From Beta vulgaris subsp. vulgaris (lineage: Eukaryota > Streptophyta > Magnoliopsida > Caryophyllales > Amaranthaceae), in assembly GCF_026745355.1 (NCBI RefSeq), contig NC_079209.1, forward strand, positions 19,320,987-19,384,986: 64,000 bases of DNA, read 5' to 3'. Under the pieces are notes generated by a model. The model was given only the letters and a program-made list of their open reading frames with translations. It was not told the DNA's origin and did no database searches. Below, piece after piece: positions 14,482 through 58,252 of this stretch. Position numbers and translations under genes: made by a program. How positions within the stretch are numbered: position 1 is the first letter of the stretch; each line of letters starts with the position of its first letter.

Positions 14482-14502
14482 TAAAAAAACTAATATGAAC
14501 CC

Positions 14503-14527
14503 GGTGCACACTAACTTAGTGTGCACC
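14503..14527. repeat. hairpin in the left MULE terminal repeat
   Basis: GGTGCACACTAA and its perfect inverse complement are separated by one base (12-bp arms). The right terminus has a weaker equivalent at 40850-40875. Confidence 0.85.
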
Positions 14528-15059
14528 CGATCCATATCACGTGAGTTTATTGCCTTTTCAGTTTTGGCGCGTTCGGTTTTTATCTCTTCTAATATTTTCT
14601 CTCTCCTTAGATTTGTTCAGATACTGTCTTGTTTCATCTTTTCTCTCGTCATAACCTCCTCCCACTAACTTCTGCCCTAAGTTCTTCATTTTCTCTCTCT
14701 TAAAGTTCAGTTTTCGTGAGTTCTGGTAAAATTTGAATTTAGCGATGGGAAAGAAGACGATTGGTAACCGAAATGCTGCAAAACGTAGAGGTTTGCGTTC
14801 ATCGCTAGGTCTTGGTGATGGTGCAAAAGTTCCGGAGGTTAGTGGAACTTCTCACAGTGATGGTAATTATGTTGTTGATTTTAGTTTTTACTATAATTTC
14901 TTATAATTTTTGTAGTTTTCATGTTTTGTAGTTCAATTACTCATCGTTGATTTTTTGTGCGATTTTTATTGTTTGGATGATAAATTTCTGTTGATTTTTG
15001 TTCGATTTTGGACATCTGCTTTTTTTTAGGTTTATTTTTAAATTAATATTTTGTAGTTG

Positions 15060-15868
15060 TGTGATATCTGTGATGATATGATATAGTAGTGTGACATTAT
15101 AGTGTATTTTCATGATATAGTGTATGTTAAATATGATATAGTGTATTTTCTCATCGTATAGTGTATTTTGAAATGATAGTGTTGTTGTGATAGTTCTTTG
15201 AGACATCAGATTATGTGTTTTTGATATGATATAGTGTATGTTAAAGTGATATAGTGTACGTCAAAATGATATAGTATATGTTAAAGTGATGTAGTGTATG
15301 CTACAATGATATAGTGTATGTTTAAGTGATATAGTGTATGTTATAATGATATAGTGTATGTTACAACGATATAGTATGTGTTATAATGATATAGTGTATG
15401 TTACAACGATATAGTGTATGTTATAGTGATATAGTGTATGTTTCAGTGATATAGTGTATGTTTTAGTGATATAGTGTATGTTTAAGTGATATAGTGTATG
15501 TTTAAGTGATATAGTGTATATTATAATGATATAGTGTATGTTACAATGATATAGTGTATGTTACAATGATATAGTGTATGTTTGAGTGATATAGTGTATA
15601 TTGATATGATATAGTGTATATTGATATGATATAGTGTATATTGATATGATATAGTGTATGTTATAGTGATATAGTGTATGTTACAATAATATAATGTATG
15701 TTTCAGTGATATAGTGTATGTTATCTCTGATGTAGTGTATGTTACAATGATATAGTGTATGTTATAGTGATATAGTGTATGTTATAGTGATATAGTGTAT
15801 GTTTCAGTGATATAGTGTATGTTATAGTGATATAGTGTATGTTTAAGTGATATAGTCTATGTTACAAT
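15060..15868. repeat. 20-bp minisatellite in Ulp-like intron 1
   Basis: About 40 tandem units with consensus near GATATAGTGTATGTTAAAAT (20 bp), the last four or five positions variable. It occupies most of intron 1 and stops about 10 bp before the acceptor. Confidence 0.97.
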
Positions 15869-17141
15869 TATTTATTGCAGAGCACATTGGACAGCAGGAT
15901 AGAAGAAGTGATCCTGATGTTAGTGAAGGAACTAAAGTTAATCAAATGGTAGTAATAAAAGAAGTACCAAAAGTCATGAAGAGGGTAAGAGATTCAAGTC
16001 TGAATCAAACCTTGCTATCTCTGAAGAAGAAGAAAATATCCAGTGTTGCTCAAGAAAATACAGTAAACCCATTCAGAACTAATTGCTGTGGTAAAAGGCT
16101 TTGTGAGTTGAATGAAGCTTTTACTTCTGAGCAGAAAAAAGCTGTTACTGAAATAGGTTTTGGTTCTTTGTTGCATTTGAAGATTACGAGGACTAACAAT
16201 GCTTTGAGTGCATGGTTGGTGGATAGGTTCGATGGTGGTTCGGGGATGTTTAAGGTGGGTTATGGGAAAGAGTTCAAAGTGAACCAATATGATGTTTATG
16301 ATGTCTTTCAGTTCCCTATGGTCGAAGGACAGGATGTGCTGGATGTCTCTAGGGGACCTAATGCGGATAATCCGCATTTTGATTTAAAAGCAAGTTGGAG
16401 GGAGTATTTTAAAGTTGATCGGAAGAAAGGTCAGATTGGTTTGAGTTTGTATATTCTGAGCTAAAGAAGTTAGTGGATGGTGGGGAGGTGTTTAAAAAGC
16501 TTTATGTTTTATTTGCCTTTTCTTCTTTTTTAGCTCCAGTTGCAAATAACACGCTTGATTTTGCGACTTGTTCTAGCTGTACATGAGGTTCAGAAAATTC
16601 CTCATTACAATTGGTGTAAATATATTTTGGGTAGATTGATGTATGCAAATGTTCTGTTCAAGAACTCGATGTGGTCTAAAGCTGGACGGGCGCATTATAG
16701 TGGTTGTATAATATTATTGCAGTTGATTTACTTCCATCACCTACAAATTGGTGATGGGGTGCCTCCAACTCAACTTCCTCTGTTGGCTCTTTGGGATAAT
16801 GAGTCAATTTCAAAGAGAGTTCGTCGTGAAGTGCTCTGTGATAAGTTTGGGAGTGGTTTGCTCGATGAAACTTATCCAATCGGTGCCAAGTTTTACTTCA
16901 TTGAAGATGGACAAATTGATTTCAACCGGATGAAGCCGGTTCAAAGGAAAATTGAAGTTCAGTATGTACCACGTCATGTATTGAGTGATGATACAGGAAG
17001 TGGTGGAAGTAGTGGTGGTGATGCAACAAACATGGCTGCGCCCAAGAGGAAGGTGAAGGGCAAGCTTTATATTCAGTTTGAGCTTCCGCCAGGAAGTCAG
17101 ACTGATGAAGAAATAACTACTCAAGCTAGAGATGTAAGTTC

Positions 17142-18017
17142 AATTTTCTGATATAGTAGAGTTTTCACTGATATAGCCTGGTTATATGTGATATAGTGTA
17201 TATTGGTATGATATAGTGTATGTTAATATCATATAGTGTATGTTAAAATGATATAGTGTATATTGATATGATATAGTATATGTTAAAATGATATAGTGTG
17301 TGTTAAAATGATATAGTGTATGTTAAAATGATATAGTGTATGTGAAAATGGCATAGTGTATGTTACAATGATATAGTGTATGTTCAAATGATATAGTGTA
17401 TGCTACAATGATATAGTGTATGATGCAGTGATATAGTGTATGTTACAGTGATATAGTGTATGTTAAAGTGATATAGTGTATGTTAAAATGATATAGTGTA
17501 TGTTTAAGTGATATAGTGTATGTTGATATGATATAGTGTATGTTACAGTGATATAGTGTATGCTACAATGATATAGTGTATCTTTAAGTGATATAGTATG
17601 TTATAATGATATAGTGTATGTTACAAAGATATAGTGTATGTTTAAGTGATATAGTGTATATAGAAATGATATAGTGTATATTGATATGATATAGTGTATA
17701 TTGATATGATATAGTGTATGTCACAGTGAAGTGATATAGTGTATATTGATATGATATAGTGTATATTGATATGACATAGTGTATGTCACAGTGATATAGT
17801 GTATATTGAAATGATATAGTGTATATTGAAATGATATAGTGTATGTTAAAATGATATAGTGTATGTTAAAGTGATATAGTGTATGTTAAAATGGTATAGT
17901 GTATGTTAAAATGATATAGTGTATGTTGAAATGATATAGTGTATATTAAAATGATATAGTGTATATTAAAATGATATAGTGTATGTTACAATAATGTGCG
18001 TTTTGATATAGTGTTTT
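17142..18017. repeat. 20-bp minisatellite in Ulp-like intron 2
   Basis: More than 40 units of the same GATATAGTGTAT repeat, in the same orientation, filling intron 2 from just after the donor to just before the acceptor. Confidence 0.97.
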
Positions 18018-19094
18018 TGGCTATGATTTTAACAGGAGCTTCATGCTATGTGGTTGCTGTGGAAGAGGGATTTGGATGCTGTCTCTCATTGCCATATAGA
18101 TTCGTTGAAGAGTTGGAAGGCCTCTCATGTGGTTGGCGATCCTCCTTCTGAAAATCCTTCCCAAGATGATTTTGACAAAATTTTGTCAAGTTCAATTTAT
18201 CAGAAGTATTTTGATGAGATGGTATCAATTGCAGAAGTTGTGAAGGATTTGCCAACTGGTTGGGAACAAGTGTCTAATCCTTCTACTACTGCATTCCCTA
18301 GCTTTGTAGTCACTCAGGTGACTGAGAGAACTAATGATGTGATCAACAATGTTGTGAATAGCGTTTTTAAGGAGGCAGCTGAAAATATAATTATTGAGGA
18401 AAATACATGGACTGCTTTCCAGAATGTTTTGTCTAGGGGTCCAGCCAAGTCAACTCTAAGGCTGGATGAATATGCAGTTGGGGGTCCATTCACTCATCTT
18501 TCTAAGATGATTAAAGATTTTGAACATGTGATGCACGATCTTCCAATATTTTTAAGGGAGGCTGTTGATTATTGTTCTGAAAATCAACATCCTTTAGATG
18601 GGAGGTAAATTATTGACTGAAATTTGTTTAATGTATTGTTTTTATTGAAAATATTCTTACGATTTGTGTTGCTTGTTGCAGTGAAGAGATCTTTAAGCTG
18701 GATGAAGTCTTCTTCTCTATACCTCGGAGTGAGATTTGGACGATTGGTACTGAGACTGAGATGTTTGAATCAGTTTTACATAATTGGTCAAGAATGTTGA
18801 ATATTAATGAACCCTGTCCTCGAAAAAAGTATTACTTTACTTTTTCTCTGAGTGTAAGAACTTTATTGTAATATATTTTTATGTTGTTTATTTGTTTATC
18901 TTTGCATGCATTATTCATCATAATATGAGTTCTTATGTTGCAGGCTGCATTATTCAATGTGTTTCAAGATGAAAATGATGCTAAACGCATTGATGATTTG
19001 ATCACATGCTGGAAGTTTCAAATCAAGATTTGAATAACATAAAAAAAATTGGATGCTACTGTTGAATTGGTGAGATAAATTCTGTTTTTGAAAT

Positions 19095-19412
19095 TATGAT
19101 ATAGTGTATGTTACAATGATATAGTGTATATTGTTATGATATAGTTTATTTAAAATGATATAGTGTATGTTGATATGATATAGTGTATGTTAAAATCATA
19201 TAGTGTACATTGATATGATATAGTGTATGTTAAAATGATATAGTGTATATTGATATGATATAGTGTATGTTTAAATGATATAGTGTATATTGATATGATA
19301 TAGTGTATGTTTAAATGATATAGTGTATGTTCAAATAATATAGTGTATATTGATATGATATAGTGTATATTAAAAGGATATAGTGTATGTTTGTATATGA
19401 TATAGTGTAGTT
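19095..19412. repeat. 20-bp minisatellite in Ulp-like intron 5
   Basis: About 16 units of the same repeat between the donor at 19070 and the acceptor at 19434. The short introns 3, 4 and 6 lack it. Confidence 0.95.
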
Positions 19413-20297
19413 TATACTTGTTTTAATTTTGTAGGTTTTTTTCCCTGTTTTGGTGAAAGGAGGTAATCATTTTGTCCTGTTTGTGCTGGAGACAAAGAAA
19501 AGGACTGTTTTCTATCTTGATAATAAGATTTGGGATGATGATGAGAAATATAAGAAAATGATGGAGACTCTCAGTTCAATCATTGTTGATGGAGTTTCAA
19601 GTCTTTTCCAATGTTATGAAATCCCACAAGATCAAGGTGATGATATGGGTTTATGGAGAATGACAGAAGTGAAGGGAAGCTGGAAAAAAGGTGCATATGA
19701 TTTGGATTGTGGTGTGTACATACTTGTCCTTATGCTACTTTTTGAAGGCTCTGAAGAGTTTGAATGCCCATATTTGAATGATGTAAGTTTAATATAATTA
19801 TTTTTAAGTGGTTTATCTAATCTTTTTCTTATATATAGTTTCTTACTTATTTAATTTATTTTCAGGAGAATATTAGGAAAGCAGCAAGAGTCTCTTTGTG
19901 TGGTTGTATGATTTTTTCTGATCTGAATAAGAATAGAAGTCAGCTTGTGGAAAACGTGATATTATTCAGATCAAAGAGATCAGAGACTGTTGCTTTAATT
20001 GAAAACAATAGAAGGAAGAAAGCTGAAGAGAGTGAGAGGATAGAACAGGATTTGAGAAATGCAATGCAGCAGGAGAAGAAGAAGAAACAACTTGAGGATG
20101 CAAAGAAGAAGAAGCCAGCAAAGAAAAAGTTAACTGTCAAATTAGGAAAGTAAAAATATATTGATGTATTTCACTAATTTTACAAACAATGTTACTAATC
20201 TAGTACTAGGTTGGTGTTAATCATTGGTTTACAAACAATGTAATTATGTAGTTTTGAATGATTTTAGAAATAGTGTTAGTATGTTAACAGTAGTTTG

Positions 20298-20935
20298 TAG
20301 TGATATAGTGTGGTTTTCAATGATATAGTGTATATTTTTATATACAGTGTTATTCTATACATATCATTATATATGATACTGTAGGTGAAAATGATATAGT
20401 GTATGTTAGAATGATATAGTGTATGTTAGAATGATATAGTGTATGTCAAAATGATATAGTGTATGTTACAGTGATATAGTGTATATTAAAATGATATAGT
20501 GTGTGTTAAAGTGAACAGTGTGTATTTAAATGATATAGTGTATGTATAATGAGATAGTGTATGTTAAAGTGATATAGTGTATGTTAGAATGATATAGTGT
20601 ATGTTAAAAGGATATAATGTATGTTGAAGTGCTAGTGTATGTTAAAATGATAGTGTATCTTAAAATGATATAGTGTATCTTAAAATGATATAGTGTATGT
20701 TAAAATGACATAGTGTACAATGATATGATATAGTGTATAATGATATGATATAGTGTATGTTACAGTGATATAGTGTATGTTAAAATGATATAGTGTATAT
20801 TAAAATGATATAGTGTATGTTACAGTGATATAGTGTATGTTAAAGTGATATAGTGTATGTTAAAGTGATATAGTGTGTGGTATAATCATATAGTGTATGT
20901 TAAAATGATATAGTGTATGTTACAGTGTAATTCAT
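20298..20935. repeat. 20-bp minisatellite between convergent MULE genes
   Basis: About 30 units in the gap between the Ulp-like stop codon (20153) and the transposase stop codon (21080, minus strand), with more indels than the intronic arrays. Confidence 0.95.
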
Positions 20936-21394
20936 AAATATATCAAATGATTTAAAACATTGTATAGTTCTCTTGGTAAAGTATTTTAGAACAGATGTTC
21001 TTTTGGAGTTATACTTCCAAACTCATTGTGTCTTTTTTTCCCTTTTTTTGAGGCCTTCTTGTATAAATCATAGTGTCCCTTATTCGTTGTTGTCTTTTCC
21101 TTTTGTGACTGCTCTATCTGGATCTAAGACTGTTGGTATTGGTGGTGATTCTTGTGCGTTGTTTTCTTGACTCTCATTAGCTTGTAATGCTGCAGCTGCT
21201 TCTTGTAATGCTTTCTCATGAGCTTTAGCTTTTTCTGCTGATGCTTTTGCTTCTTCTATCTTTATTAATTCTTCAACTCTTGAATTTTTTTCTTGAAACT
21301 TTACTCTATCACTGCTCTAGCTGGTTCTATTCTGTGGCTCTTTAATATGAGGTTATAGTACCTTATGAAATTAATGTGTTAGTATATAGAGAAA

Positions 21395-21850
21395 CATATA
21401 GTATATTTCTATGTAATATAGTGTATGTAAAAATGATATAGAGTATGTTATAGTGATATAGTGTATGTTGATATCATATAGTGTATGTTACAATGATATA
21501 GTGTACATTAAAATGATATAGTGTATGTTAAAATGATATAGTGTATGTTAAAATGATATAGTGTATATTGATATGATATAGTGTATGTTAAAATGATATA
21601 GTGTATGTTAAAATGATATAGTGTATGTTAGAATGATAAAGTGTATGTTAAACTGATATAGTGTACATTAAAATGATATAGTGTATGTTAAAATGATATA
21701 GTGTGTGTTAAAATGATATAGTGTATGTTAGAATGATATAGTGTATGTTAAAATGATATAGTGTACATTAAAATGATATAGTGTATGTTAAAATGATGTA
21801 GTGTATAATAAAATGATATAGTGTATATTAAAATGATACATTGTATAGCG
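21395..21850. repeat. 20-bp minisatellite in a transposase intron
   Basis: About 22 units inside the intron 21362-21861 of the minus-strand transposase. The repeat keeps its plus-strand orientation, so it reads antisense in this transcript, unlike in the Ulp-like gene. Confidence 0.95.
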
Positions 21851-23343
21851 TGTTTACATACCTCCTTATCATGTGGAGCCTCTATGGTGTGAAGCTGTTT
21901 ATTTCTCCTTTTTCTCTCAATTGATTATCAAATTTCTCCCAAACTTCTTTTTTTGCAAATCTTGTCCACCTTGGTGATATGTATTTCTCTGGAATTTTTT
22001 GGACAAAATGTAAGTGTAGAACTCTTATGGCATGAAAGCACAACCAACCTAATTCTTGAAAATTTCTGCATCCACACTCAATTGTCATCTCTGGGTAATT
22101 GAATGAGACTTGTTGAGAAGAACCATCAATGCCATTGAGGAAAACTCTGTATGTCAGAGTGTTCCCTTGTGTACCAACTAGTTCAATTGCACTTGCCATT
22201 GCATGTTTGAATTCATCCTCAAAATCTCTGAAAAGAGTATGTGTGTACACTAAAGCAGCATGTTTTAATAGTGGACTCATGCAGAGATCTGATTTTGGTA
22301 TTCCTTTTGTACAGTCAAAATCATCCCTTTCTTCCTGTCTTCTCCACCTTATTACTGTCTGTTGGAATATTGAAAAGAAGTCACTTAAGCTAGTGGTTTT
22401 GCTTGCCTTAAACCCAATAGCATGGTTTGCGCTTTCACTTCTCTGTGAAGACAGTATTCCAGCAGAGAAGAAGTCTTTGCTAAATGTTGTACACCATATT
22501 TCTTTCAAACTATACAATCTGTTGAACGAGCGATCATCTTCTAGTTTGTATTTTGTTGTCATTGTGGTCCAAGTTTGTTCAAATTATGTTGTTGTAATGC
22601 AACCACTGAGACACTTGTGAAAAATGTTCTTGAATTCCTTATCAGCTTTCATCAATCCAAATTGTTGATTTGCATTTTGACTCAAATGCCATAAACATAG
22701 CATGTGTCTTGATGTTGGGAAAGCCTGTCAATGAGTTTATTTAGTTAGGCTTTGCTCTTTCAATAGTACATAACAGAAGTTGTGCAAATGTCACATAAAC
22801 ATGAGTACCTTTTTTATTGCTCCTGCAATTGCAGCATCTTGGTCGCTGAATATAGTTATTGGACATTTACCTTTCATTGACTTCTTGAATGTTTCAAAAA
22901 GCCATTCAAATGATGGTATTGTCTCATCTGCAAGAAATGCACATGCAAACATTGTGTTTTTCCAATGGTTATTAATTCCTACAAATGGTGCACAAATAAG
23001 ATTATACTTGTTTGTCCTATATGTAGTATCAAAAACCATAACATCTCCAAAGATTGTATAGTCCTCAAGCATCATAGAGTCTCTCCAAAACAAGCAGCAA
23101 ACCTTTCCTTCATCATTCAATCTTACTCTAAAGAAGAATTTACTATTTGTTTGCATCTGCTCATAAAGGTTCTCAACAACTTTTTGTGAATCCTTTCCCT
23201 CAATTGGTTTTATTTTGACTTTATAACAGCAGTTGAAGTGGTCCTTGATGGAATGACCCAATACATCTTCACCACCTGCTTCTGTACTCATATATCGGAA
23301 TGAATCTATTGGCCTCAGCCCACACTCTTGCATAGCTTGTATG

Positions 23344-23348
23344 GTTTG
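23344..23348. repeat. solo-LTR target duplication, left copy
   Basis: GTTTG. The same pentamer follows the LTR at 36559-36563. Confidence 0.85.
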
Positions 23349-23494
23349 TGTAATAGCCCTAGTTTTAAAAGCGTTTATTAAATATTGATTATGTTTCTTA
23401 AGTTAATCATATTTCGGAAATTCTTATTTTATATGAATTGAAGTATGAATTATTTTGCCGTGTTGTAATATATTTGTTATATTAATTCTATGTA

Positions 23495-23499
<5 letters not shown>

Positions 23500-23535
<36 letters not shown>
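23500..23535. repeat. (ATT)n microsatellite in the solo LTR
   Basis: About 12 ATT units. The nested copies carry the same tract in reverse complement with more units (28070-28153 and 32733-32803), a length-variable site shared by the family. Confidence 0.95.
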
Positions 23536-23536
<1 letters not shown>

Positions 23537-24189
23537 AATGTATATTATGGTTCTTAGAGCGATTTGCGGATTATTTTCCCAAAATAGAAACTTAAACCCA
23601 AATCACCTTTGTCGGTTATTTTCCAAAATAACAAAACCAAATTCTCCTTCCTATCTATGTTGTCGGTCAACTGAGGACTAAATCCCAAAGAGAAACCCCA
23701 ATTTCCTTTTCTCTCTTTCCCCGTGTGAAACCCCAAAGAAAACCCCAAACCCATTCTCTCTCCTCCCGTCAAACTCTCTGTTTCTCTCTCGCTCACCTGC
23801 GTTGCGCCTCGCCGGCGTTCTCCGAGGCTGCCGGAGATCCGCACCACTTCTACTCCTCTATTTCGTCGTTGTTACTGTTGTTCGTGGGTGCTGTCTTGCG
23901 TCGCTGCTCTTCGTGCGTCGCGTCGCACCACGACCGCCGACTTTGCCGGAGCTTTCCTCGTCGGCTCGCGTTGCTGCTGGTGTCGTTGTTGTTGTTCGGT
24001 TTTTGTCGTCACCTCCCCTGCCTTGTTTTCTCTCCCCTGCTCGAGTGTCGTTGCTGCTGTCCTTGTTGTGCGCTAATGGTGGTGGTGGTTATGGCTGATG
24101 TGCCGCTGCCTTGTGCTATTGTCAATCGGTACAAACCTATATTTATCCTCTTCAATTGATTTTAGGAGATGATGTGGATATTGGTGTGA

Positions 24190-24194
24190 GATAA
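24190..24194. repeat. nested-element target duplication, left copy
   Basis: GATAA, repeated at 32951-32955. Confidence 0.85.
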
Positions 24195-27100
24195 TGTAAC
24201 AGCCCGAATTCTCCCGACCAGCTCACAGAGGATTAAGCACAGCGAAAGAGATTTTGGTCGAGATAACTCGGACTATTACCATCACACTCACCGAACAACA
24301 TCGGAGAGTGTGGAACTCAATTCCCAACTCTATTCAAATAAATTAACTATTATAACTACGCTCTGATTCTCATACTCTATTCTCATAAATTTCTACAGAA
24401 AATCCGGCAGAGTTTCCTTTGAAAATAGGACAACGCTAAAGCGAGAAATAATATGAACCTGTTGCAATTTCAATTTATAAAATATTTCCAAATCCCAAAG
24501 CTCAACAATCTCAACGCTTTCGCGGAGCAACAACCAATAGAGAATCAGGAGCACTAACTAGCGACTCTTAAATGTAGAAATAGATTTAGAAAATAAACAA
24601 CTAACTATTACAAAGTCAAGCGTCCTCACTTCGATAGCAACTATAATACTACTCCAGCTTGTATCAGCTTCAACTTGCAAAGGTTAACTTTCGGCTTCAA
24701 CCTGAAACATTTAGGAAAACTGCCACCCACCAAGTGACAGGCCACAGAAATGACAAAACAACATATACACATCAGCAAAGCTGAGTACTAACCCGTAAAC
24801 AAGAGTAACACATGCTTTGGTGGTTTTTACTTGAAAACGACTCTCACACAATCAACATAAGTTCAACAATCACACCAATCATAGCATTCTTAGCAGCAAT
24901 ATTCTTGTTGAACATACATATTACATTTCCAAATTCCACATTCCATATTATAGTAACAAAATTCAATAAGATGACTCTCAACAATGACATGTTTCTATAT
25001 TCTCATTTAATCAACCTTTCAACTCAGTTACTATATTTTCACAAAATCCGATCGTTTGGCATGAACGCGAGTGGAGAGGGGTACCACGCAGTACCAGCTG
25101 TCTCCAAACTAGTGAGGGTCGTCACCCAGCCTTTTATTATATGCTTGCAAGACTTACCCGGACATGTCCTATAACGCCAGGATTAGCCCCTCCTGGAAGG
25201 CAACAGCTAGGGACTCTACCCGCCCTAACTCGGGGTGCCTATTCATGCCTCACTTTCATATTTATAAAATAAGATATTTAATGGTTTATACTTTAAACCT
25301 CAATACTCAAAACATAACACCATATTCGACCTTATCTGGTCTTAACTCATATTTGAATCATTTCCTCGTTATTATACCAAGTTATATTTTTAGAAACATA
25401 GTATTTTCGAAAAAAACTCCAATGACTGAACAAGAAGAATACTTTTATAATAATCCAATAGCAATTCACAACTAACTCATAGAGATGGATCTATAATCAT
25501 GGGCATTACTATAAACGATATATGATATCTAATATTCATATAACGCACACAGGAGCATTTAAATATATATTGCTGAACATAAAGGTTACATCCACTCTAT
25601 AACAATTATGCGAAACCTCAAAGCATGATGACTTGATTTCCCATGTCATCTTGAATTATATACGTCTACATAGCCATCCTCCATCAATCACCTAAAATAA
25701 CATTGATAATCAATAACCAAAATTAGACTAATCTAAACTATAAAAACGTAATCGTAACTTATTCCCAATTCACAAATGATCAACCTTTAACATTCTAATT
25801 TCCTTAATCCTTAATTAATATCTATAACTTCGATGATATTAGCTACATCGACTTGCATCCCAATTCATAATCACAATTCCAAATTATAAAACTAAACAAA
25901 CTAAACATAACTCACAACCGTACCTAAATCAAGCACCTAATTGTGCTACCAACAATTATATTGAGAATATGAAGCTAGCTCGACTCATAAATAAACCTCA
26001 AGAGACTGAATTCTATCTTGCACTCAAATCCTTACCAATCGAAGAACAATTCCAATATTATAATATCCTTCATAATTCCCAATGATACTCCATCCAAATC
26101 ATCCTCCAATAATCAAGACTATTAAAGTAATTAGCAACTTGTATCCAACCTAGTCATTTCCCCCGTAGATAACCATAATCGTCTAACTTATAAAGACATA
26201 TTTCAAATCGACAATATATGCTTTTCAAATTCCAATTATCAACATAAACACAACTGGTAGTAATTAATCATGTCAACAAATATCCACAACAATATTACTA
26301 AGTCTCTCAGTTAAATTAACTAACAAGAATAAACCAAAAACACATGACTCAAGTTTCATCGATCATAGGTTCATTATAAGTAACAAAATATAATCCATGT
26401 TATACCATTAGCTGAGTTCTCATTAACATAATCAGTAATAAAATCAAGTACATATCATACTCATGGTCATACATAGCGAGCTTATCTCATTAAAACAATG
26501 TCATTATCTAAGTGGGACTTCTTCAAGGTAATTCTTAACTCACTTTGATTTATATAGTTAAACACACACACTAATACACTTTAGTGAATCACTAGTGAAG
26601 TAGTCTGACTTTATCATTTTATTCCGTTTATAGTTATCAAACTAAAATACTTTATTAACCACAAGTTCATTAATCGAAACCATAGTTAATAAAACTAACT
26701 CAAGTACTCTTCACATTACTAATAAGGACTAATTAATTCTCTTTCTAACTTAATATATAAACTAGATTGCAACTATTAATGGAATTATTCCTCAATACAC
26801 ATAAGCCTAAATTTAATAATACTAATAACATTTTGTTTGTCGAGATCTGCAAGCTTATGTAACTCAGTTGCGTTAAGAGTTTCAATTTGCATCTTTCTTT
26901 TTCCTTCTCAAAGTTAAGGTGGACATGGGTTGCAAATCAACTATGTTAAAAACTAAGAGACACAACTCAACTTAGAGAATAAAGCTCAACTCAATAACTT
27001 ATTTCAATTGTAATTTAACCAAAACAGAATTATAATCAGATCTAATCATAAGAGGACTCAAAGAGAAACTTGGGCAATGTTAAAATCGAAATCCACAATC

Positions 27101-28070: not shown

Positions 28071-28154
<84 letters not shown>

Positions 28155-28301
28155 TCCATAAAGTTAAATAAATAAATACATTACAGCACGACAAAATAAT
28201 TCATACTCCAACTCAAATAAAATAAGAATTTTCGAAACATAATTAACTTAATAATTATAATTATCATTTAAATAAAGACTCTTAAAAACAGGGCTATTAC
28301 A
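24195..28301 (-). repeat. 3' LTR of the nested element
   Basis: Begins (plus strand) TGTAACAGCCCGAATTC and ends GGGCTATTACA. It contains a GC-rich stretch (about 27285-27740) with CCGGCG and CGACGA runs that reads in element orientation as a leader with several overlapping but mutually inconsistent ORFs. Confidence 0.92.
28070..28153. repeat. (AAT)n microsatellite in the LTR
   Basis: About 28 units with one slip (AATAT), longer than in the sister LTR. Confidence 0.97.
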
Positions 28302-28865
28302 CTCTACCACCCTTAAAATAAGTTTCGTCCTCGAAACTTACAAATAATTATTTTCATAAAACCAAATCTCAAGCTCGCAAGACATTATGCGTCCAGCCTC
28401 CATTCTACCATCATCTTCTGATTCTCTACTTCAACTTGATACGCGAAATCAAGGAGCAAAGAAAATCTCTACTTCGACTTGACTCGCAATATCAAGGAGC
28501 AAAGAGCAAAAGGGGCAAACTTGTTGGCATTGGATTTCAATCATCTCACCGACAGAGATCTCGTTTGAAATTAATTTACTTAAGCAAATCATACAAGTTT
28601 TCTCGAAATACACATTTTAAGTAAATAATATCATGAACAATCAAGTCATAACAAGATAATAATATACACATTAACAAATATACACACACTTAATACCCAT
28701 TTAAATAAATGGATTCATATGGTACACGCGTAAGCGCAAACACTCATACGGCTTGATTCATTTATACCTAACTCTTTAGTCAATTCATTAGACCTATATT
28801 CGACCCTTACGCTATGATATGGAGATCACAGCGCCTCCAAAAACTACTCAAGCTCTGATACCACT
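28302..28865 (-). other. 564-bp internal domain of the nested element
   Basis: Holds only the polypurine tract (28304-28314), the chromovirus-type 3' motif, about 500 bp of non-coding sequence and the PBS (28852-28863). No ORF of interest. Confidence 0.85.
28852..28863 (-). other. primer-binding site of the nested element
   Basis: On the minus strand TGGTATCAGAGC, the full 12-base initiator-Met tRNA complement, two bases from the LTR. This fixes the element's orientation. Confidence 0.9.
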
Positions 28866-31800
28866 TGTAACAGCCCGAATTCTCCCGACCAGCTCACAGA
28901 GGATTAAGCACAGCGAAAGAGATTTTGGTCGAGATAACTCGGACTATTACCATCACACTCACCGAACAACATCGGAGAGTGTGGAACTCAATTCCCAACT
29001 CTATTCAAATAAATTAACTATTATAACTACGCTCTGATTCTCATACTCTATTCTCATAAATTTCTACAGAAAATCCGGCAGAGTTTCCTTTGAAAATAGG
29101 ACAACGCTAAAGCGAAAAATAATATGAACCTGTTGCAATTTCAATTTATAAAATATTTCCAAATCCCAAAGCTCAACAATCTCAACGCTTTCGCGGAGCA
29201 ACAACCAATAGAGAATCAGGAGCACTAACTAGCGACTCTTAAATGTAGAAATAGATTATAGAAAATAAACAACTAACTATTACAAAGTCAAGCGTCCTCA
29301 CTTCGATAGCAACTATAATACTACTCCAGCTTGTATCAGCTTCAACTTGCAAAGGTTAACTTTCGGCTTCAACCTGAAACATTTAGGAAAACTGCCACCC
29401 ACCAAGTGACAGGCCACAGAAATGACAAAACAACATATACACATCAGCAAAGCTGAGTACTAACCCGTAAACAAGAGTAACACATGCTTTGGTGGTTTTT
29501 ACTTGAAAACGACTCTCACACAATCAACATAAGTTCAACAATCACACCAATCATAGCATTCTTAGCAGCAATATTCTTGTTGAACATACATATTACATTT
29601 CCAAATTCCACATTCCATATATAGTAACAAAATTCAATAAGATGACTCTCAACAATGACATGTTTCTATATTCTCATTTAATCAACCTTTCAACTCAGTT
29701 GCTATATTTTCACAAAATCCGATCGTTTGGCATGAACGCGAGTGGAGAGGGGTACCACGCAGTACCAGCTGTCTCCAAACTAGTGAGGGTCGTCACCCAG
29801 CCTTTTATTAATATGCTTGCAAGACCTTACCGGACATGTCCTATACGCCAGAATTAGCCCCTCCTGGAAGGCAACAGCTAGGGACTCTACCCGCCCTAAC
29901 TCGGGGTGCCTATTCATGCCTCACTTTCATATTTATAAAATAAGATATTTAATGGTTTATACTTTAAACCTCAATACTCAAAACATAACACCATATTCGA
30001 CCTTATCTGGTCTTAACTCATATTTGAATCATTTCCTCATTATTATACCAAGTTATATTTTAGAAACATAGTATTTTCGAAAAAACTCCAATGACTGAAC
30101 AAAGAATACTTTTATAATAATCCAATAGCAATTCACAACTAACTCATAGAGATGATCTATAATCATGGGCATTACTATAAACGATATATGATATCTAATA
30201 TTCATATAACGCACACAGGAGCATTTAAATATATATTGCTGAACATAAAGGTTACATCCACTCTATAACAATTATGCGAAACCTCAAAGCATGATGACTT
30301 GATTTCCCATGTCATCTTGAATTATATACGTCTACATAGCCATCCTCCATCAATCACCTCAAAATAACATTGATAATCAATAACCAAAATTAGACTAATC
30401 TAAACTATAAAAACGTAATCGTAACTTATTCCCAATTCACAAATGATCAACCTTTAACATTCTAATTTCCTTAATCCTTAATTAATATCTATAACTTCGA
30501 TGATATTAGCTACATCGACTTGCATCCCAATTCATAATCACAATTCCAAATTATAAAACTAAACAAACTAAACATAACTCACAACCGTACCTAAATCAAG
30601 CACCTAATTGTGCTACCAACAATTATATTGAGAATATGAAGCTAGCTCGACTCATAAATAAACCTCAATAGACTGATTCTATCTTGCACTCAAATCCTTA
30701 CCAATCGAAAACAATTCCAATATTATAATTCCTTCATAATTCCAATGATACTCCATCCAAATCATCCTCCAATAATCAAGATTATTAAAGTAATTAGCAA
30801 CTTGTATCCAACCTAGTCATTTCCCCGTAGATAACCATAATCGTCTAACTCTTATAAAGACATATTTCAAATCGACACATATATGCTTTTCAAATTCCAA
30901 TTATCAACATAAACACAACTGGTAGTAATTAATCATGTCAACAAATATCCACAACAATATTACTAAGTCTCTCAGTTAAATTAACTAACAAGAATAAACC
31001 AAAAACACATGACTCAAGTTTCATCGATCATAGGTTCATTATAAGTAACAAAATATAATCCATGTTATACCATTAGCTGAGTTCTCATTAACATAATCAG
31101 TAATAAAATCAAGTACATATCATACTCATGGTCATACATAGCGAGCTTATCTCATTAAAACAATGTCATTATCTAAGTGGGACTTCTTTAAGGTAATTCT
31201 TAACTCACTTTGATTTATATAGTTAAACACACACACTAATAACTTTAGTGAATCACTAGTGAAGTAGTCTGACTTTATCATTTTATTCCGTTTATAGTTA
31301 TCAAACTAAAATACTTTATTAACCACAAGTTCATTAATCGAAACCATAGTTAATAAAACTAACTCAAGTACTCTTCACATTACTAATAAGGACTAATTAA
31401 TTCTCTTTCTAACTTAATATATAAACTAGATTGCAACTATTAATGGAATTATTCCTCAATACACATAAGCCTAAATTTAATAATACTAATAACATTTTGT
31501 TTGTCGAGATCTGCAAGCTTATGTAACTCAGTTGCGTTAAGAGTTTCAATTTGCATCTTTCTTTTTCCTTCTCAAAGTTAAGGTGGACATGGGTTGCAAA
31601 TCAACTATGTTAAAAACTAAGAGACACAACTCAACTTAGAGAATAAAGCTCAACTCAATAACTTATTTCAATTGTAATTTAACCAAAACAGAATTATAAT
31701 CAGATCTAATCATAAGAGGACTCAAAGAGAAACTTGGGCAATGTTAAAATCGAAATCCACAATCAATAACACATAATCATACAACTACAACATCAACAAT

Positions 31801-32736
31801 ATCAATAACAAATCTTGAAATGAAACAAAATCCAATTCTAGGTTACTCACTAAAATCTGATTTAGGTTCAACTTGAAAGAAATTAACAACGTAATTAAAC
31901 TTGTATGTAATCAGAATTTCAGGGGAAAAAATACAAAGGTACGGGTGTACCTCTGCTCTTGTGAGCAGCGAAGAACAGAGAGGGGAGTTGGGTCTCCGGC
32001 GAGTGGTGACGGAGAGCCGACGAGGCTAAACCGCAGCAACACGACGTATTCCGGCGATTTTTCGTCGAGCAACAACTCAGAGCAGCAGCCGCGACGACGA
32101 CGGCACTTCGCGCGGTAGCAGCACGAACAAAGGAGAGAGACGCAGCTCCGGCGAGCAAGAATTGATGGCCACAAAAGCTAGGTTCAGGCGACAACACCGC
32201 CGGCATAAAACCACCGGCACCGACGCACGAAAAGAAATAACGAGAAGAGAGAGAAACAGGGCTGCGACAACAGCAGCGATGAACAACAGATGCGGTGTGG
32301 TGGCTTGCGAGCAGCACCACACGCATATCAAGAACACCGGCGACGCAACCGGATTCCGACGAGACCGAGAGCAGGGGACGAGAGAGTGAATTAAGGGTTT
32401 GGGGTTTCGATTCGTCGAGCCAAAAGAACAGGGGAGGGGTTTCGTTTTGGGGTTCTGGAATTTTACGAGGAAGGAGGTACAAGAAACAAAATAATGGAAT
32501 GGGTTTTGGGTTCTTTTCACGGGTTGGGGTTTTATGGGGTTAGAAGGCACGGGAGAGAGAGAAAGGAATGAGGGATTAGTTTTGGTTTCATTAAACCGCC
32601 AAAATAACAAGGGGGGGGGGTATTTGGTTACTTATTTGACCGACAAAACAAATGGGACCAAGGGTTTGGTTTTGGGTTTCTATTTTGGGAAAAGTACAAC
32701 TAAACTAATTCACATAAAACTTAATATATGAATTAC

Positions 32737-32803
<67 letters not shown>

Positions 32804-32950
32804 TCCATAAAGTTAAATAAATAAATACATTACAGCACGACAAAATAATTCATACTCCAACTCAAATAAAATAAGAATTTTCGAAACATAATTAACTTAA
32901 TAATTATAATTATCATTTAAATAAAGACTCTTAAAAACAGGGCTATTACA
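28866..32950 (-). repeat. 5' LTR of the nested element
   Basis: Near-identical to 24195-28301. Visible differences include single-base indels around 29250-30120, a GAG duplication near 31978 and microsatellite length. Confidence 0.92.
32733..32803. repeat. (AAT)n microsatellite in the 5' LTR
   Basis: About 23 uninterrupted units, the same site as 28070-28153. Confidence 0.97.
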
Positions 32951-35900
32951 GATAATTTCTAATAGTGCAGTTTAGATGTTGGTGATTTGTGATTGTGACT
33001 CTAATTGTTATTGTGTGAAATCTTATTGTGGTTTAGATGCGTCACATAACTTGTTATTGGATACATATTTCATTTGAATAAAGTGGTTGCGTTAGTAGAT
33101 CATAACTGATTGTGATATAAGATCATTTTAGTTCAATAATAATATAGAATGTGAATTCTAGTTTTAGGATGCAGTTTGATTTTATGAAAGAAAGGAATTA
33201 CGCTTTAGAGCTTATCTTAATTCAAGTTTGGCATTACTTAACTAGTTTGGAAAGAATTACTTGTGTGTTTGCAGTTTACTCATTTTGATTCTCAGAGTAG
33301 TTTTGAAGTGATATTTGTAAAAGAATCGAATTAGTGTGATTTGAATTTGATGAATAATACTAATTAGCTATGTTAATTCATGTTTGGTTAGATTGGACAG
33401 TGTCACTCTTAGTGTAGATGTATCGAAAAGAATTAGTTGTTTTAGATGACTCAATCTATTTATGGAGTTAGAATGCTACTAGTAAGAAAGAGGTAACATG
33501 AGTTCTGTTTGTGTTAATGTTAATAGAAAGTTACTAATCTTCAAATAGTATTTATATTATCAAGTATAGTAGTAGTTTGAGTTCATTGTTAATTGTAAGT
33601 AAAGAGTAATGCAACTAAGAAGTTATAAAGGTGTAAGTTAATTAATTGAGAATCACTTATCTAAACTATAATAATGATTGATTTTGTTGAAGTACTTAAC
33701 TAAAGTAGGAAAGGAATTAGCTAAATGTTAATTTATCAAGATTATTAGAAGGAGTGAATAACTCATAAAGTTTATTAGTGAGGTTAATATGTAGATATAT
33801 CCGAGTAATGTGATAAGGAGATATCCTATAAACGGATTAATATTGTAAAGTTAGAACACTTATTTAGAGTTACTAAAAAGGGGTTAAGGTGATTATTTCT
33901 TTTAATAATAGTCACTCAATAAAGCTAGTAGTCCAGTATAAGTAAATTACTCATATGTTGGTTATAAAGTAAGACATTACTCATTTCTTCGTTAATGATT
34001 AAGAGTTAGTTAACCAAAGTTAACTTATAAGATATTCAATTTGATTGACTTCTAAATAAAGAATGTGAGTTGGTTGGAGCTAGGAGTAGTTCTAAAATAG
34101 TTGACCAATGTTAAGGAAATGGAGACTATTGAAGTTAGCTTACCTAGTAATGTATCAAGGATGCGCTTTATAAAGAATTTCCGTTTAATGATTATAGATG
34201 GAGTAAAGTAATAAAGTTAGATTATCAGATTAGTATCTACTAGTTTATATTAGTGCTTGAGTTCAACTCCGTAATAAATATAAGTTGTGAAATACCTTAA
34301 AGAGGCCTCAAATATATGTTTGAGTCGTACTCTAAGGACATGAGTTGGACTTGGCCTATGTGATTATGAGTACATTATTGTGAGTGAATACATCGTTGAT
34401 TTTGTAACAAGTATTTAGCTAATAGTAACTACTTCATATCAATATTGTCTTAAGAACCTCAAGTTGGGATGTGTAACTTAACTCTCCCTAGTTAATTCTA
34501 GGTGAGAGACCTATTGCCAGTATGGTTGATGCTTGATAATCATTATTATCATTATTAAGATGAGTCTATGTAGATATTGGTGAAGTGAAAAAGAATATGA
34601 ACTATCTATACGCAAAAGTATGCGTTGTATGGAGCTGGTTTAGTAAAAGTATGCGTTGTATGGAGTTGGTTTAGTAACTCTCGTTAGTTAATTCTAGCTG
34701 AGAGACCATTTGCTATTGTTGTTGGTATTCACCAGATATGATTGCTTATGAGTTGTGGTAATTTATAAGTTCTATGATTGAAATTGAGTTGAATCTAGTT
34801 ACATAACTACACTGACCTTGAAATTCATAAGAAAGCACGATAGCATGTGATTATAGTTTTCTAGAGTGAAGTCTTCTAGTGTGGTTGGTTATGCAACAAT
34901 CGTTTATAATTAATAAAGCTAGCGGATAAGTTCCAAGAATGATTGGTTATGTTATGAATGATCATCGAAAGGAATCTAAAAGGGGAAAGTAGCCTCGTCT
35001 GAGTCGACGGATGAGGTGACATGAACAGTGCCCCATGGACTGTGAACCTTGGGGGCCCCACAGGGAAACTTGCCCATTGCTCTGTGGGGCGATAATCGGG
35101 CGTTGTATCAGGTAATGTGAAACCTGTGGATGACTGATGAAATCAGCGGGAAAATGTACTCCGGACTAGTCGCGGTTATTGGCCAAAAGTAAAGTGAATG
35201 GTTGGGTGACGACCCCCACTGTCGGAGTGTAAGCTTTGTCTCCTCCGCCGCGTTCTCTTTCCCCCTGGTTAAAAGGAATGTTATTTCAAAATATGAAAGT
35301 TATATCGATAATGGATCCCTGATAAGGAATCGTATCGTGGTAAGTAGTTTCGATATTGAATTCCCGATAAGGAATCATATCAGGTAAGTAATGAATGTTT
35401 ATTCAGTATCTGAATATGAATATTGATAGTGGTTTCCTGATAAGGAGGCGTATCTTGGTAAGTGATATTAATGTTGGATTTCCTGATAAGGAATCGTATC
35501 TTGTTATGTGGATTCCCGAAAAGGAATTGTTATAGTGAAAGTTATGATATTTATTGCCCGATAAGAGGTTGTTTATAGAATATAAGAAAGTGATTGATAG
35601 AATATGAAAGCATAAGTGTGAATTTCCATTAAGAAATCGACTAAAGGAAATGAAGATATTGTTGATATTAAAGCTGATGACCTCACATTCCTACTACGAA
35701 ATCGTGGTAAGTCGAAAGGTTGATTAAATGAGAATATAGAAACATGTCATTGTTGGGAGTCACCTTATGGTGTTCGTTACTATGTGATTAGTGATGTATT
35801 GTAAAACGAAGAATTGGATAGAAATATAATATGTATGTTCAACAAGAATATTGCTGCTAAGCATGCTATGATTGGTATAATTGTTGAACTTATGTTGATT

Positions 35901-36558
35901 GCGCGAGAGTCATTTTCAAGTAAAAGCCACCAAAGCATGTGTTACACTTGTTTATGGGTTAGTACTCAGCTTTGCTGATGTGTGTACATTGTTTTGTCAT
36001 TTCTGTGGCCTGTCACTTGGTGGGTGGCAGTATCTTATATGTTTCAGGTTGAAGCCGTGAGTTATTCTTTTGCAAGCTGAAGCGGATACGAGATGGTGCA
36101 GTATTATATTTGTTATTGAAGTGAGGACGCTCCACTTGTAATAGTTAAATCGTTTATTTTCTATAATGTATTTTCTTCATTTAAGAGTCGCTAGTTAGTG
36201 CTCCTGATTCTCTATTGGTTGTTGATCCGCGAAAGCGTTGAGATTGTTGAGCTTTGGGATATTGGAAATATTTTATAAATTGAAATTGCAACAGGTTCAT
36301 ATTATTTCTCGCTTTAGCGTTGTCCTATTTTCAAAGAAAACTCTGCCGAATTTTCAGTAGAAGTTTATGGGAATAGAGTCTGAGAATCAGAGCGTAGTTG
36401 CAATAGTTAATTAATTTGAATAGAATTGGGAATTGAGTTCCATACTCTCCGATGTAGTTCGGTGAGTGTGATGGTAATAGTTCGGGTTATCTCGACTAGA
36501 GTCTCTTTCGCTGTGCTTAGTCCTCCGTAAGCTGGTCGGGAGAATTCGGGTTGTTACA

Positions 36559-36563
36559 GTTTG
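36559..36563. repeat. solo-LTR target duplication, right copy
   Basis: GTTTG, matching 23344-23348. It encodes part of the transposase Lys-Gln-Thr-Ile junction on the minus strand. Confidence 0.85.
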
Positions 36564-37059
36564 TTTCTTTGGATCACTCATCTGACGCTCAGATCTATGA
36601 AGGTAATTTAATGGTTCTCTAGTAAGTGGATGATTGTGTTTTATAACATGCTGCACAATTTCATAATGTCCTTCAGTGTTCATCCTTGCTCTAATCAGTG
36701 CAGGACATTCAGTTCTTGTGATCATAACTCTTCGTGTCCTTTGTTTCTTTGATTTGCTGTCTTGTATTATTATATCTGTATTATTCTCTACCTGTTTTTC
36801 TTTGATTTTGGTATTTCTTTTCCCTTGAGCAGAGCAGACATAGTACTTTTGATGCACAACTGATGTCCCTTCTTTTTTTTTTTCTGTTTTTTGGATTTTC
36901 TAACACTGAATCCTACTATAGCAGCATGCTGACAATATAACTCATGTATATCATCCAATGTTGATCTTACTTGACCAAGTAAAACTCCTCCAATTTCATG
37001 TTTATTCAGTGATTGGCCAATTGAACCTGTTATAAAAGAATGAATATATTTTTGTCACT

Positions 37060-37850
37060 GTTATTATAGTGTATGTATATATGATATAGTGTATCAATTT
37101 ATGATATAGTGTATCAATTTATGATATAGTGTATGTTGCAGTGATATAGTGTATGTTAAAGTGATATAGTGTATGTTAAAGTGATATATAGTGTATCTTA
37201 AAGTGATATAGTGTATGTTATAATGATATAGTGTATGGTAAAATGATATAGTGTATGTTAAAATGATATAGTGTATGTTAAAATGATATACTGTATGTTA
37301 AAGTGATATAGTATATGCTAAAGTGATATAGTGTACCTTAAAATGATATAGTGTATGTTACAGTGATATAGTGTATTGTTAAAATGATATAGTGTATATT
37401 AAAGTGATATAGTGTATGTTAAAGTGATATAGTGTATGTTAGAATGATATAGTGTATGTTAAAGTGATATAGTGGATGTTAAAATGATATAGTGGATGTT
37501 ATAATGATATAGTGTATGTTATAGTGATATAGTGTATGTTAAAATGATATAGTGTATGTTATAATGATATAGTGTATGTTTCAGTGATATAGTGTATGTT
37601 ATAGTGATATAGTGTATGTTACAATGATATAGTGTATGTTATAGTGATATAGTGTATGTTAAAATAATATAGTGTATGTTATAATGATATAGTGTATGTT
37701 AAAGTGATTTAGTGTATGTATATATATTATATAGTGTATTAAATATAATGTAACTATCTATTAATATAGTGTATTAACGTTATAGTGTATCTGATATAGT
37801 GTATTTATATTTTATATAGTTTATTTATGTATGATATAGTGTAGGTAAGG
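37060..37850. repeat. 20-bp minisatellite upstream of the transposase exon
   Basis: Close to 40 units of GATATAGTGTATGTTAAAAT-type repeat, same orientation as on the left side of the MULE, degenerating after ~37730. Confidence 0.97.
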
Positions 37851-38480: not shown

Positions 38481-38485
38481 GTTAA

Positions 38486-38920
38486 ATGGCTTCACTTGAT
38501 CAACTTCACCCAGTCCTCTCAATGCATGAGATTCTACGTTTCCATATTTTTCCTCGACTTTCTAACCCAAAGGACAGAGAGTGTGTGGAAAGTGTGTGCA
38601 GAGAGTGGAGGACCATTGCAAGGTATGGTTTAGAAGATGCCCACGAACTGTTGGGTATGGAACAGATTATGTCATTTCATGTGTTCTCTAAAGTATCATG
38701 TTGGTATTCTGAAGATGTGATGAATGTTTGTAAAACATGGAGGAAGATGTGGAAAGTAAGGGAGTCAGTTCATTGGACGCCCGAGTGGGAGGACACCTCC
38801 ATGAAGGCCTGGGCTCTCAAGTCCATAATTTTTGAGGATGCTGTTGATTTTTGGGCTCACATTAGTGGTGAGTGGTGGGCTTACTGTGATGGGTTCCCAA
38901 TTTTATTTGGTGAAGAATAA
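38486..38920 (+). CDS. F-box-like protein carried by the MULE
   Basis: An intact 144-aa single-exon ORF. Residues ~11-48 fit an F-box: LSMHEILRFHIFPRL, then a gap with Asp and VCREWRTIAR (consensus L-P-x-E-x-L...I-x-x-R-L...V-C-x-x-W). Residues ~56-93 repeat the pattern more weakly (MEQIMSFHVFSKV ... VCKTWRKMWK). The C-terminal third is Trp-rich and acidic, with no Kelch, LRR or FBA domain seen. F-box proteins tether targets to SCF ubiquitin ligases through Skp1; without a known target-binding domain a role here is speculative. It lies between two minisatellite arrays, on the strand opposite to the transposase. It is the only MULE gene without an obvious lesion. Confidence 0.7.
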   Translation: MASLDQLHPVLSMHEILRFHIFPRLSNPKDRECVESVCREWRTIARYGLEDAHELLGMEQIMSFHVFSKVSCWYSEDVMNVCKTWRKMWKVRESVHWTPEWEDTSMKAWALKSIIFEDAVDFWAHISGEWWAYCDGFPILFGEE

Positions 38921-38929
38921 AACATTAAT

Positions 38930-39220: not shown

Positions 39221-39224
39221 TGGA

Positions 39225-40255
39225 ATTTTTGATATAGTGTAGTTTTGAATGATATAGTGTATGTGCTTCTGTTCTAATATAGTGTATTTTGATATGATAT
39301 AGTGTATGTTAAAATCATATAGTGTATGTTAAAATGATATAGTGTATATTGATAGTGTATGTTATAGCGATATAGTTTATGTTTCAGTAATATAGTGTAT
39401 GTTACAATGATATAGTGTATGTTATAGTGATATAGTGTATGTTAAAATGATATAGTGTATGTTATAATGATATAGTGTATGTTTCAGTGATATAGTGTAT
39501 GTTATAGTGATATAGTGTATGTTACAATGATATAGTGTATGTTATAGTGATATAGTGTATGTTAAAATGATATAGTGTATGTTATAATGATATAGTGTAT
39601 GTTAAAGTGATATAGTGTATGTTACAATGATATAGTTTATGTTATAGTGATATAGTGTATGTTTCAGTTATATAGTGTATGTTACAACGATATAGTGTAT
39701 GTTATAATGATATAGTGTATGTCAAAGTGATATAGTGTATAATAAAATCATATAGTGTATGTTAAAAAATAGTGTATATTAATATGATATAGTGTATGTT
39801 AAAATGATATAGTGTATGTTTAAATGATATAGTGTATGTATAGATTATATAGTGTATTTATTGATATAGTGTATGTTAAAATGATATAGTGTATAACAAA
39901 ATGATATAGTGTATGTTACAATGATATAGTGTATGTTAGAATGATATAGTGTATATTAAAATGATATAGTGTATGTTTTTGTAATGCGTTTAAGTAAATA
40001 TTTTCTATATCTCCTATTATGTTCCTATATGGCATAGTGTACGTAGTTTATGATATAGTGTACGTAGTTTATGATATAGTGTACGTATTTATGATATAGT
40101 GTATCTATGTTTGATATAGTGTATGTTTCTGTAATGCATCTAAGTAAATAATTTATATATTTCTTATTGTGTTTCTATAGAATATAGTGTAACTCTGTAT
40201 GATATAGTGTATCTCTGTATCATATAGTGTATCTATTTTTGATATAGTTTAACTA
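39225..40255. repeat. 20-bp minisatellite, right end of the MULE
   Basis: The longest array, about 50 units. Toward the right it mixes with a longer variant containing a GTAATGCGTTTAAGTAAATA segment that occurs twice (about 39978 and 40130). Confidence 0.97.
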
Positions 40256-40830
40256 CTTACTTGGGAATGACAGCTGAATTAGATTCATCACTTGAAACAA
40301 ATGAAGTAGGATTTGCTCGCCAAATTGATTTTCTATCTCATCATGAAACAGAACCACATTACCTAATAAATATGTGTTACTTTTTGGTTAATGAACAAAA
40401 TGAAATTATTGATTTGGATGCTGTTACCTTCAACAGTTGGTGTATTATTGTGATCTATTATCAGTGAATTTGTCACATTTTGGATTGAATTTGATGTTTT
40501 CGTCGTCGATTGCTTCAATGTTGTTCGTCGTCGTCGAGTGATATAGGCTGTCTATACTATTGGTTCAATACTCTGATTGAGATCTATTTGATCAATTAAA
40601 CTGATTTTCCATGAATTTTTCGCAATTGTTCAATTCAATAGAAATTGTTGAGAATCAGTTAGTTTGTAGGAATAATTTCAATGGAGAGAAACAATATTTG
40701 CAGAAATTTAATAGCAATAGAATCTATGGTTTTTGGAAATATTGAAGAGTGAAAAAGTGGCGGATTTTGGAAGTATTGAAGAGAGAGAAAATCGCGCATT
40801 TTTGGTAATTAAAAATTAGTAATGTTTAAC
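40256..40830 (-). other. MULE right subterminal region, candidate transposase 5' end
   Basis: On the minus strand this is a leader-like, repeat-free region resembling the promoter/leader on the other side (14548-14744), with CTCTCTC tracts. A GTAAGT donor at about 40257-40262 and short coding-like frames are present, but no start codon in a consistent frame was found. A plus-strand 66-codon frame starts at 40270. I leave it unassigned. Confidence 0.3.
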
Positions 40831-40849
40831 GGGTCACGTGCGTGGGCCT

Positions 40850-40875
40850 GGTCCACACTATTTTTAGTGTGAACC
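40850..40875. repeat. hairpin in the right MULE terminal repeat
   Basis: GGTCCACACTA and TAGTGTGAACC with a TTTT loop; one mismatch in 11-bp arms. Confidence 0.8.
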
Positions 40876-40896
40876 GGGTCCACGCAAGTCGGATTG

Positions 40897-58235: not shown

Positions 58236-58252
58236 GGTAATCTCTCTAAAAC

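Follow-up and report, generated by a model that had tools for sequence, protein, structure and literature searches.

The subject of this analysis is a Mutator-like element (MULE) at positions 14482..40896 of a 64000-base window of Beta vulgaris subsp. vulgaris DNA, the window being the whole stretch of contig NC_079209.1 that was analysed. The element carries three genes, namely an Ulp1-like gene, similar to SUMO-protease genes, on the plus strand, a FAR1-MULE-SWIM transposase gene on the minus strand and an intact F-box-like open reading frame (ORF) of 144 residues on the plus strand, and seven arrays of a 20-bp repeat, GATATAGTGTA, cover 4693 of the 7710 bp (61%) of its own noncoding DNA. 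The explanation favoured here, tentatively and at somewhat less than an even chance, is that of a decayed Jittery-type MULE with three genes of its own, together with what may be a VANC-like anti-silencing module and an F-box helper. The anatomy is read from a single decayed copy of the element, whose boundaries are exactly those of the original prediction, with TCCTAGTTA on both sides.

Repeat arrays in the noncoding DNA of the element

With at most one mismatch allowed, GATATAGTGTA occurs 216 times on the plus strand of the window and once on the minus strand. In particular, 215 of the 216 plus-strand copies are inside the element in seven clusters, all of them in its own noncoding DNA; 168 copies are exact, and 179 of the 204 spacings shorter than 60 bp measure precisely 20 bp. 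At the same stringency, no copy falls within the 5543 bp counted as coding (2874 bp of Ulp1-like exons, 2234 bp of transposase exons and the F-box ORF) or within a 13162-bp insertion nested in the transposase gene, and one plus-strand copy lies in the window outside the element. When two mismatches are allowed, the counts in the window are 242 on the plus strand and 14 on the minus strand. None of 20000 random placements of the arrays avoided all coding DNA, a comparison that is partly circular because the exons were drawn with the arrays in view; independent support for the drawing of the exons comes from their splice sites and continuous frame.

On their plus strand, the arrays contain little cytosine (126 C versus 975 G). 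Across both strands, the arrays contain 5.1 CG and 12.4 CHG sites per kb, whereas the remaining noncoding DNA of the element has 26.3 and 35.9, and in the arrays 1013 of the 1095 cytosine sites are CHH. The observed/expected CG ratio of the arrays (0.46) is close to that of the flanks (0.51-0.53), and the scarcity of CG is therefore due to composition. Further, exact 36- and 31-base strings of the repeat match nothing in viral contigs or in contigs of bacterial genomes.

Element ends, transposase gene and nested insertion

The 9-bp target site duplication is identical at 9 of 9 bases and has a length typical of the MULE superfamily (about 8-11 bp). The inverted ends that the original prediction described are apparently present in degenerate form: bases 15-63 of each end align in register with a score of 36, where 500 shuffles reached 32 at most, and the outermost 14 bases do not match. 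Terminal inverted repeats are missing in some MULEs (PMC6446971). The left end contains a perfect palindrome, GGTGCACACTAA-C-TTAGTGTGCACC, at 14503-14527. This palindrome and the one in the right end (40850-40875) have AGTGT in common with the array word TAGTGTATG, which may be chance or may reflect one protein reading both. Tandem repeats with GGGCAAA (units of 39-42 bp, and 82 bp) lie at 14246-14459, next to the insertion site, and at 10679-10803.

The transposase matches the Pfam MULE domain PF10551 at 67.1 bits (cutoff 27.6), which places it in the MULE superfamily. Moreover, it matches the SWIM domain at 21.5 bits (cutoff 19.6) and, in the piece at 36570-37054 read across one frame break, the FAR1 domain at 56.4 bits. 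The plant Jittery group is characterized by an N-terminal FAR1 domain and a C-terminal SWIM or CCHC domain (table in PMC6446971), and the transposase has FAR1 at its N-terminus and SWIM at its C-terminus. Because these three domains were detected, the transposase is, as judged from its domains, of the FAR1/Jittery type; a mudrA-like identity, as originally assigned, was rejected in favour of this type.

The transposase frame is split by the nested insertion, which is flanked by an 8-bp target duplication, AAGAAACA, and whose flanks, when joined, restore a continuous transposase frame. The insertion is composite, with a pair of roughly 4.1-kb repeats (24195-28301 and 28866-32950) that are 98.9% identical and sit between related sequences in reverse orientation (86-89% identity). 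Excluding this insertion, the element itself measures 13253 bp.

The Ulp1-like gene

A single frame is kept through all junctions of the seven exons drawn for the Ulp1-like gene. Within exon 2 this frame is lost and then regained, and within exon 5 it meets two stops. The present copy of the gene is a pseudogene or near one and, because of these breaks and the split transposase gene, the present copy of the element is probably no longer functional.

The catalytic exon has the His, Asp and Cys of Ulp1/C48 peptidases in the order of that family, with 17 residues from His to Asp, a spacing typical of these enzymes, and the Cys 63 residues later in an LDCGV context. Its match to Pfam Peptidase_C48 (PF02902) has a score of 14.4 bits and an E of 0.035 over 24736 models, equivalent to about 1.4e-6 for one model named in advance. 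Kinship with Ulp1 is accepted here, with the curated cutoff unreached, because the family had been named beforehand and its single-model E is this low. The best PDB sequence match of the exon, over the His-Asp stretch, is ChlaDub2 (E 0.061), a protease of the same clan. Of the Ulp1-type protease gene in the original prediction, the triad stands; the profile score and the broken frame qualify it.

A 144-residue ORF with twin F-box-like units

The whole ORF matches the Pfam F-box-like model PF12937 at 28.0 bits (cutoff 24.3, E 1.8e-6), bearing out the F-box-like motifs proposed for this protein, and it matches two further Pfam F-box models below their cutoffs. With E allowed to reach 10, PF12937 matches the ORF in two stretches. 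Aligned with each other, residues 8-42 and 53-86 score 68 (shuffle mean 20.9, standard deviation 4.1), a value reached by none of 2000 shuffles, and 14 of 34 aligned residues are identical; the two halves were cut after their likeness had been noticed. By the profile match of the whole ORF and the self-alignment, the protein is F-box-like with a twin unit, the product of a tandem duplication of an F-box-like unit. Skp1 binding by this protein is uncertain because the twin unit lacks the LPxx(L/I) core.

A chance origin of the ORF was rejected by two kinds of shuffle: none of 10 shuffled versions of the protein matched any family at E up to 1, and none of 2000 dinucleotide shuffles of 37844-39230 contained an ORF of at least 144 residues (longest 136). 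A possible 5' intron of the gene, seen by eye, has its donor at 38198 and an acceptor ending at 38480. Arrays of the 20-bp repeat flank the ORF on both sides, which argues that it belongs within the element's own architecture.

Table 1. Positions of the element's features within the window
Feature	Positions	Strand	Basis
Left 9-bp target site duplication TCCTAGTTA	14473..14481	.	sequence
Left degenerate terminal inverted repeat, beginning 14 bases in from the end	14496..14544	+	local alignment of the two ends
Ulp1-like (VANC/Kaonashi-like) gene, seven exons	14745..20153	+	GT-AG sites by eye and translation
Ulp1-like exons	14745-14862, 15881-17133, 18036-18604, 18682-18853, 18944-19069, 19435-19782, 19866-20153	+	splice sites by eye
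Exon with the His, Asp and Cys of the Ulp1-type triad	19435..19782	+	PF02902 at 14.4 bits, residue positions
Array 1, intron 1 of the Ulp1-like gene, 32 copies	15114..15859	+	
Array 2, intron 2 of the Ulp1-like gene, 39 copies	17190..18015	+	
Array 3, intron 5 of the Ulp1-like gene, 16 copies	19098..19409	+	
Array 4, between the convergent 3' ends of the Ulp1-like and transposase genes, 26 copies	20302..20917	+	
Array 5, probable last transposase intron, 21 copies	21415..21825	+	
Array 6, between the 5' ends of the transposase and F-box genes, 37 copies	37083..37843	+	
Array 7, between the F-box gene and the right end of the element, 44 copies	39231..40251	+	
FAR1/Jittery-type MULE transposase gene, split by the nested insertion	21083..37054	-	Pfam, translations
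Transposase, probable C-terminal exon	21083-21316	-	translation
Transposase, MULE and SWIM part	21885-23399	-	Pfam
Transposase, FAR1 domain, one frame break	about 36570-37054	-	Pfam
Nested insertion, 13162 bp, within the transposase frame	23400..36561	.	sequence, translation
8-bp target duplication of the nested insertion, AAGAAACA	23392-23399 and 36562-36569	.	sequence
Intact 144-residue ORF, F-box-like units at residues 8-42 and 53-86	38486..38920	+	PF12937, self-alignment
Right degenerate terminal inverted repeat	40834..40882	-	local alignment of the two ends
Right 9-bp target site duplication TCCTAGTTA	40897..40905	.	sequence

Comparison with known systems

The layout of the element resembles that of the Arabidopsis VANDAL elements. 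As in VANDAL21/Hiun and VANDAL6, there are three genes and apparent degenerate terminal inverted repeats, the latter being described for VANDALs in PMC10398659, and tandem repeats of a short word occupy introns and intergenic DNA. In particular, VANC21 targets tandem repeats that lie upstream of VANA21 and within introns of both VANC21 and VANB21 (PMC5735166); in Arabidopsis, short words are bound by VANC proteins, which bring about a loss of methylation (PMC5735166, PMC10398659), and an Ulp1 domain is present in some VANC genes (PMC13317346). In contrast, VANDALs form a MULE group separate from Jittery (PMC6446971), VANC proteins have the DUF1985 and DUF287 domains that were undetected in the Ulp1-like protein, and the repeat words differ.

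ULP sequences have been reported in Jittery-like MULEs of grapevine and melon, and the ULP-bearing MULEs of the grapevine study include Jittery-like and terminal inverted repeat MULEs as well as Kaonashi (PMC2528002). The original prediction had linked such genes to Kaonashi MULEs, which do carry them; given the Jittery-type transposase, the presence of ULP in Jittery-like MULEs fits the element better. The element shares with the grapevine and melon elements a Jittery-type transposase adjoining an Ulp1-like gene, and its own length of 13.25 kb compares with 11.9 and 14.4 kb for the two multi-copy Jittery families of grapevine (PMC2528002). Unlike those elements in the available part of their description, it has an F-box gene and repeat arrays, and plant Jittery elements are tabulated with one ORF (PMC6446971). 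As in Kaonashi (KI) MULEs, the Ulp1-like gene is opposite in orientation to the transposase (PMC2528002); unlike them, the element has a FAR1-type transposase where theirs is mudrA-type, and the available part of their description includes no F-box gene. Among open-licence full texts, judged mostly by title, no F-box gene in an Ulp1-bearing MULE was found, in agreement with the expectation that the pairing was undescribed. Relative to these texts, the F-box/Ulp1 pairing and the arrays look new, while ULP in Jittery-like MULEs was already known.

Further, the polerovirus P0 and crinivirus p22 proteins offer a comparison from another kind of selfish element with an F-box-like motif, where the motif contacts SKP1 and the protein acts against silencing. 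The minimal F-box motif of P0 is LPxx(L/I) (PMC6593998), which is present in P0 and absent from the 144-residue ORF, and the proteins are different.

Proposed mechanism and evidence against it

Because the VANDAL-like layout occurs here with a Jittery-type transposase, the Ulp1-like protein is a candidate anti-silencing factor. In intact copies of the element, it would bind the 20-bp arrays that fill the introns and intergenic DNA and, once bound, would strip silencing marks from the element and its sister copies, as VANC does on its own targets. The protein may thus be VANC-like in its working, its membership of the VANC family being a separate matter. The F-box protein might assist in this anti-silencing, which is the weaker inference and the weakest step of the mechanism. 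It could recruit a silencing factor to an SCF ligase, an action proposed for viral P0, or it could sequester Skp1-type adaptors, an option suggested by its two F-box-like units and the lack of any other recognised domain. The wider proposal is that VANC-type anti-silencing, specific for a sequence, has a counterpart beyond VANDALs in Jittery-type MULEs, here as a two-protein system: the Ulp1-like protein would find the element by its 20-bp arrays, and the twin-F-box protein would remove a silencing factor at that place. This proposal is unlikely.

Several results weigh against the favoured explanation. The scores of the catalytic exon and of the whole read-through Ulp1-like protein (12.9 bits) lie below the curated Peptidase_C48 cutoff of 20.7 bits, and the position six residues ahead of the catalytic Cys, where Ulp1/C48 peptidases have an oxyanion Gln, is occupied by Gly. 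DUF1985 and DUF287 had no match in the read-through protein at E up to 1 or, with E relaxed to 10, in exon 3 and the N-terminal part of that protein, in searches whose HMMER filters discard most weak matches. The single-sequence structure model of the catalytic exon is poor (mean predicted local distance difference test, pLDDT, 42.1) and its fold search gave nothing; for the 144-residue ORF, whose model had a mean pLDDT of 43.6, no fold match was usable. By itself, the first F-box unit scores 24.0 bits, slightly below the PF12937 cutoff, the second half of the ORF (98 residues) matches no Pfam family, and there is no LP anywhere in the 144 residues that could form an LPxx(L/I) core. The assignment of this ORF to the element is judged from one copy. 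The published words of VANC21 and VANC6 are absent from the arrays, their 6 and 2 copies lying elsewhere in the element span, nested insertion included, and array binding by an element protein, suggested by the VANDAL layout, is a candidate activity only. Finally, the contact between P0 and SKP1 has been tied to the stability of P0, and the loss of AGO1 to autophagy (PMC6593998), which makes the viral analogy a loose one.

The original prediction had the element acting in two ways on host ubiquitin-like modification. Such putative double action is weakened because the protease gene is broken, Gly stands in place of the oxyanion Gln and the LPxx(L/I) core is absent. The original interpretation as a whole is partly supported: its trio of genes is real, and the combination of arrays and Ulp1-like gene points to VANC-type anti-silencing, close to one of the targets it had named, silencing factors.

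Alternative explanations

It is a real possibility, though well short of probable, that the F-box ORF is a host gene fragment captured by transduplication in the manner of Pack-MULEs, present in one copy and without a role in the element. F-box genes form a very large family in plants, a single copy of the element was examined, and the GC content of the ORF (43%) is above that of the exons of the other two genes (38.5% and 35%) and of the other noncoding parts (29%). Moreover, capture of host fragments is frequent in MULEs (PMC2528002, PMC13317346). However, the ORF is intact whereas both larger genes are broken, it has an array of the element's own repeat on either side, and its possible 5' intron also argues against capture, as does the age of its duplication, which is taken to be old from the proportion of residues that the twin units share. 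A separate doubt is whether the ORF encodes an F-box protein at all, since a helical look-alike might produce the PF12937 match. The match begins only at profile position 10, the LPxx(L/I) core is absent, neither unit reaches the cutoff by itself, the model is of low confidence, and the three PDB sequence matches of the ORF at E up to 10 include no F-box chain. Set against the score of the whole protein above its curated cutoff, the two additional F-box models matched below theirs, and the shuffled versions that matched no family, this doubt has only a small chance of being right.

The arrays could also be an ordinary minisatellite expansion with no binding protein, their likeness to VANC targets being coincidental, which is rather unlikely. 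Tandem repeats expand by slippage without selection, and these arrays are rich in AT and differ in their number of copies. Yet one unit in one orientation recurs at seven distinct places of a single element, the window elsewhere holds a single copy on each strand at one mismatch, and the same word would not be expected from seven independent slippages; copying of one array within the element could, however, have spread it. The decayed Jittery-type MULE with a VANC-like module and an F-box helper continues to be the favoured, if tentative, explanation.

Surroundings in the window

No further copies of the element were found in the window: blastn of its own parts against the flanks gave no match at E up to 1e-3, and tblastn of its three proteins gave weak matches only, the best of which (F-box ORF, E 0.02) falls within a presumed LINE reverse transcriptase frame. 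Searches of NCBIfam with three of the element's proteins and of Rfam with 14000-41500 gave no match. The flanks contain, at 58250-62853, an element with a zinc-knuckle ORF and pieces of endonuclease and reverse transcriptase, which we take from its sequence to be a long interspersed nuclear element (LINE), and a frame at 49481-50596 that is presumably a Copia-type gag-protease. In addition, a 45-46 bp unit (TAGCGAAGCTA...) forms two separate arrays at 43880-44015 and 45642-45898.

Significance

The ways in which transposons evade silencing are still an open question, for which the VANC system has been worked out in Arabidopsis VANDALs. If the explanation favoured here is true, the same layout in another MULE lineage would be an independent case of anti-silencing, and the element supplies both a candidate DNA word, GATATAGTGTA, and a small candidate effector that recalls viral silencing suppressors.

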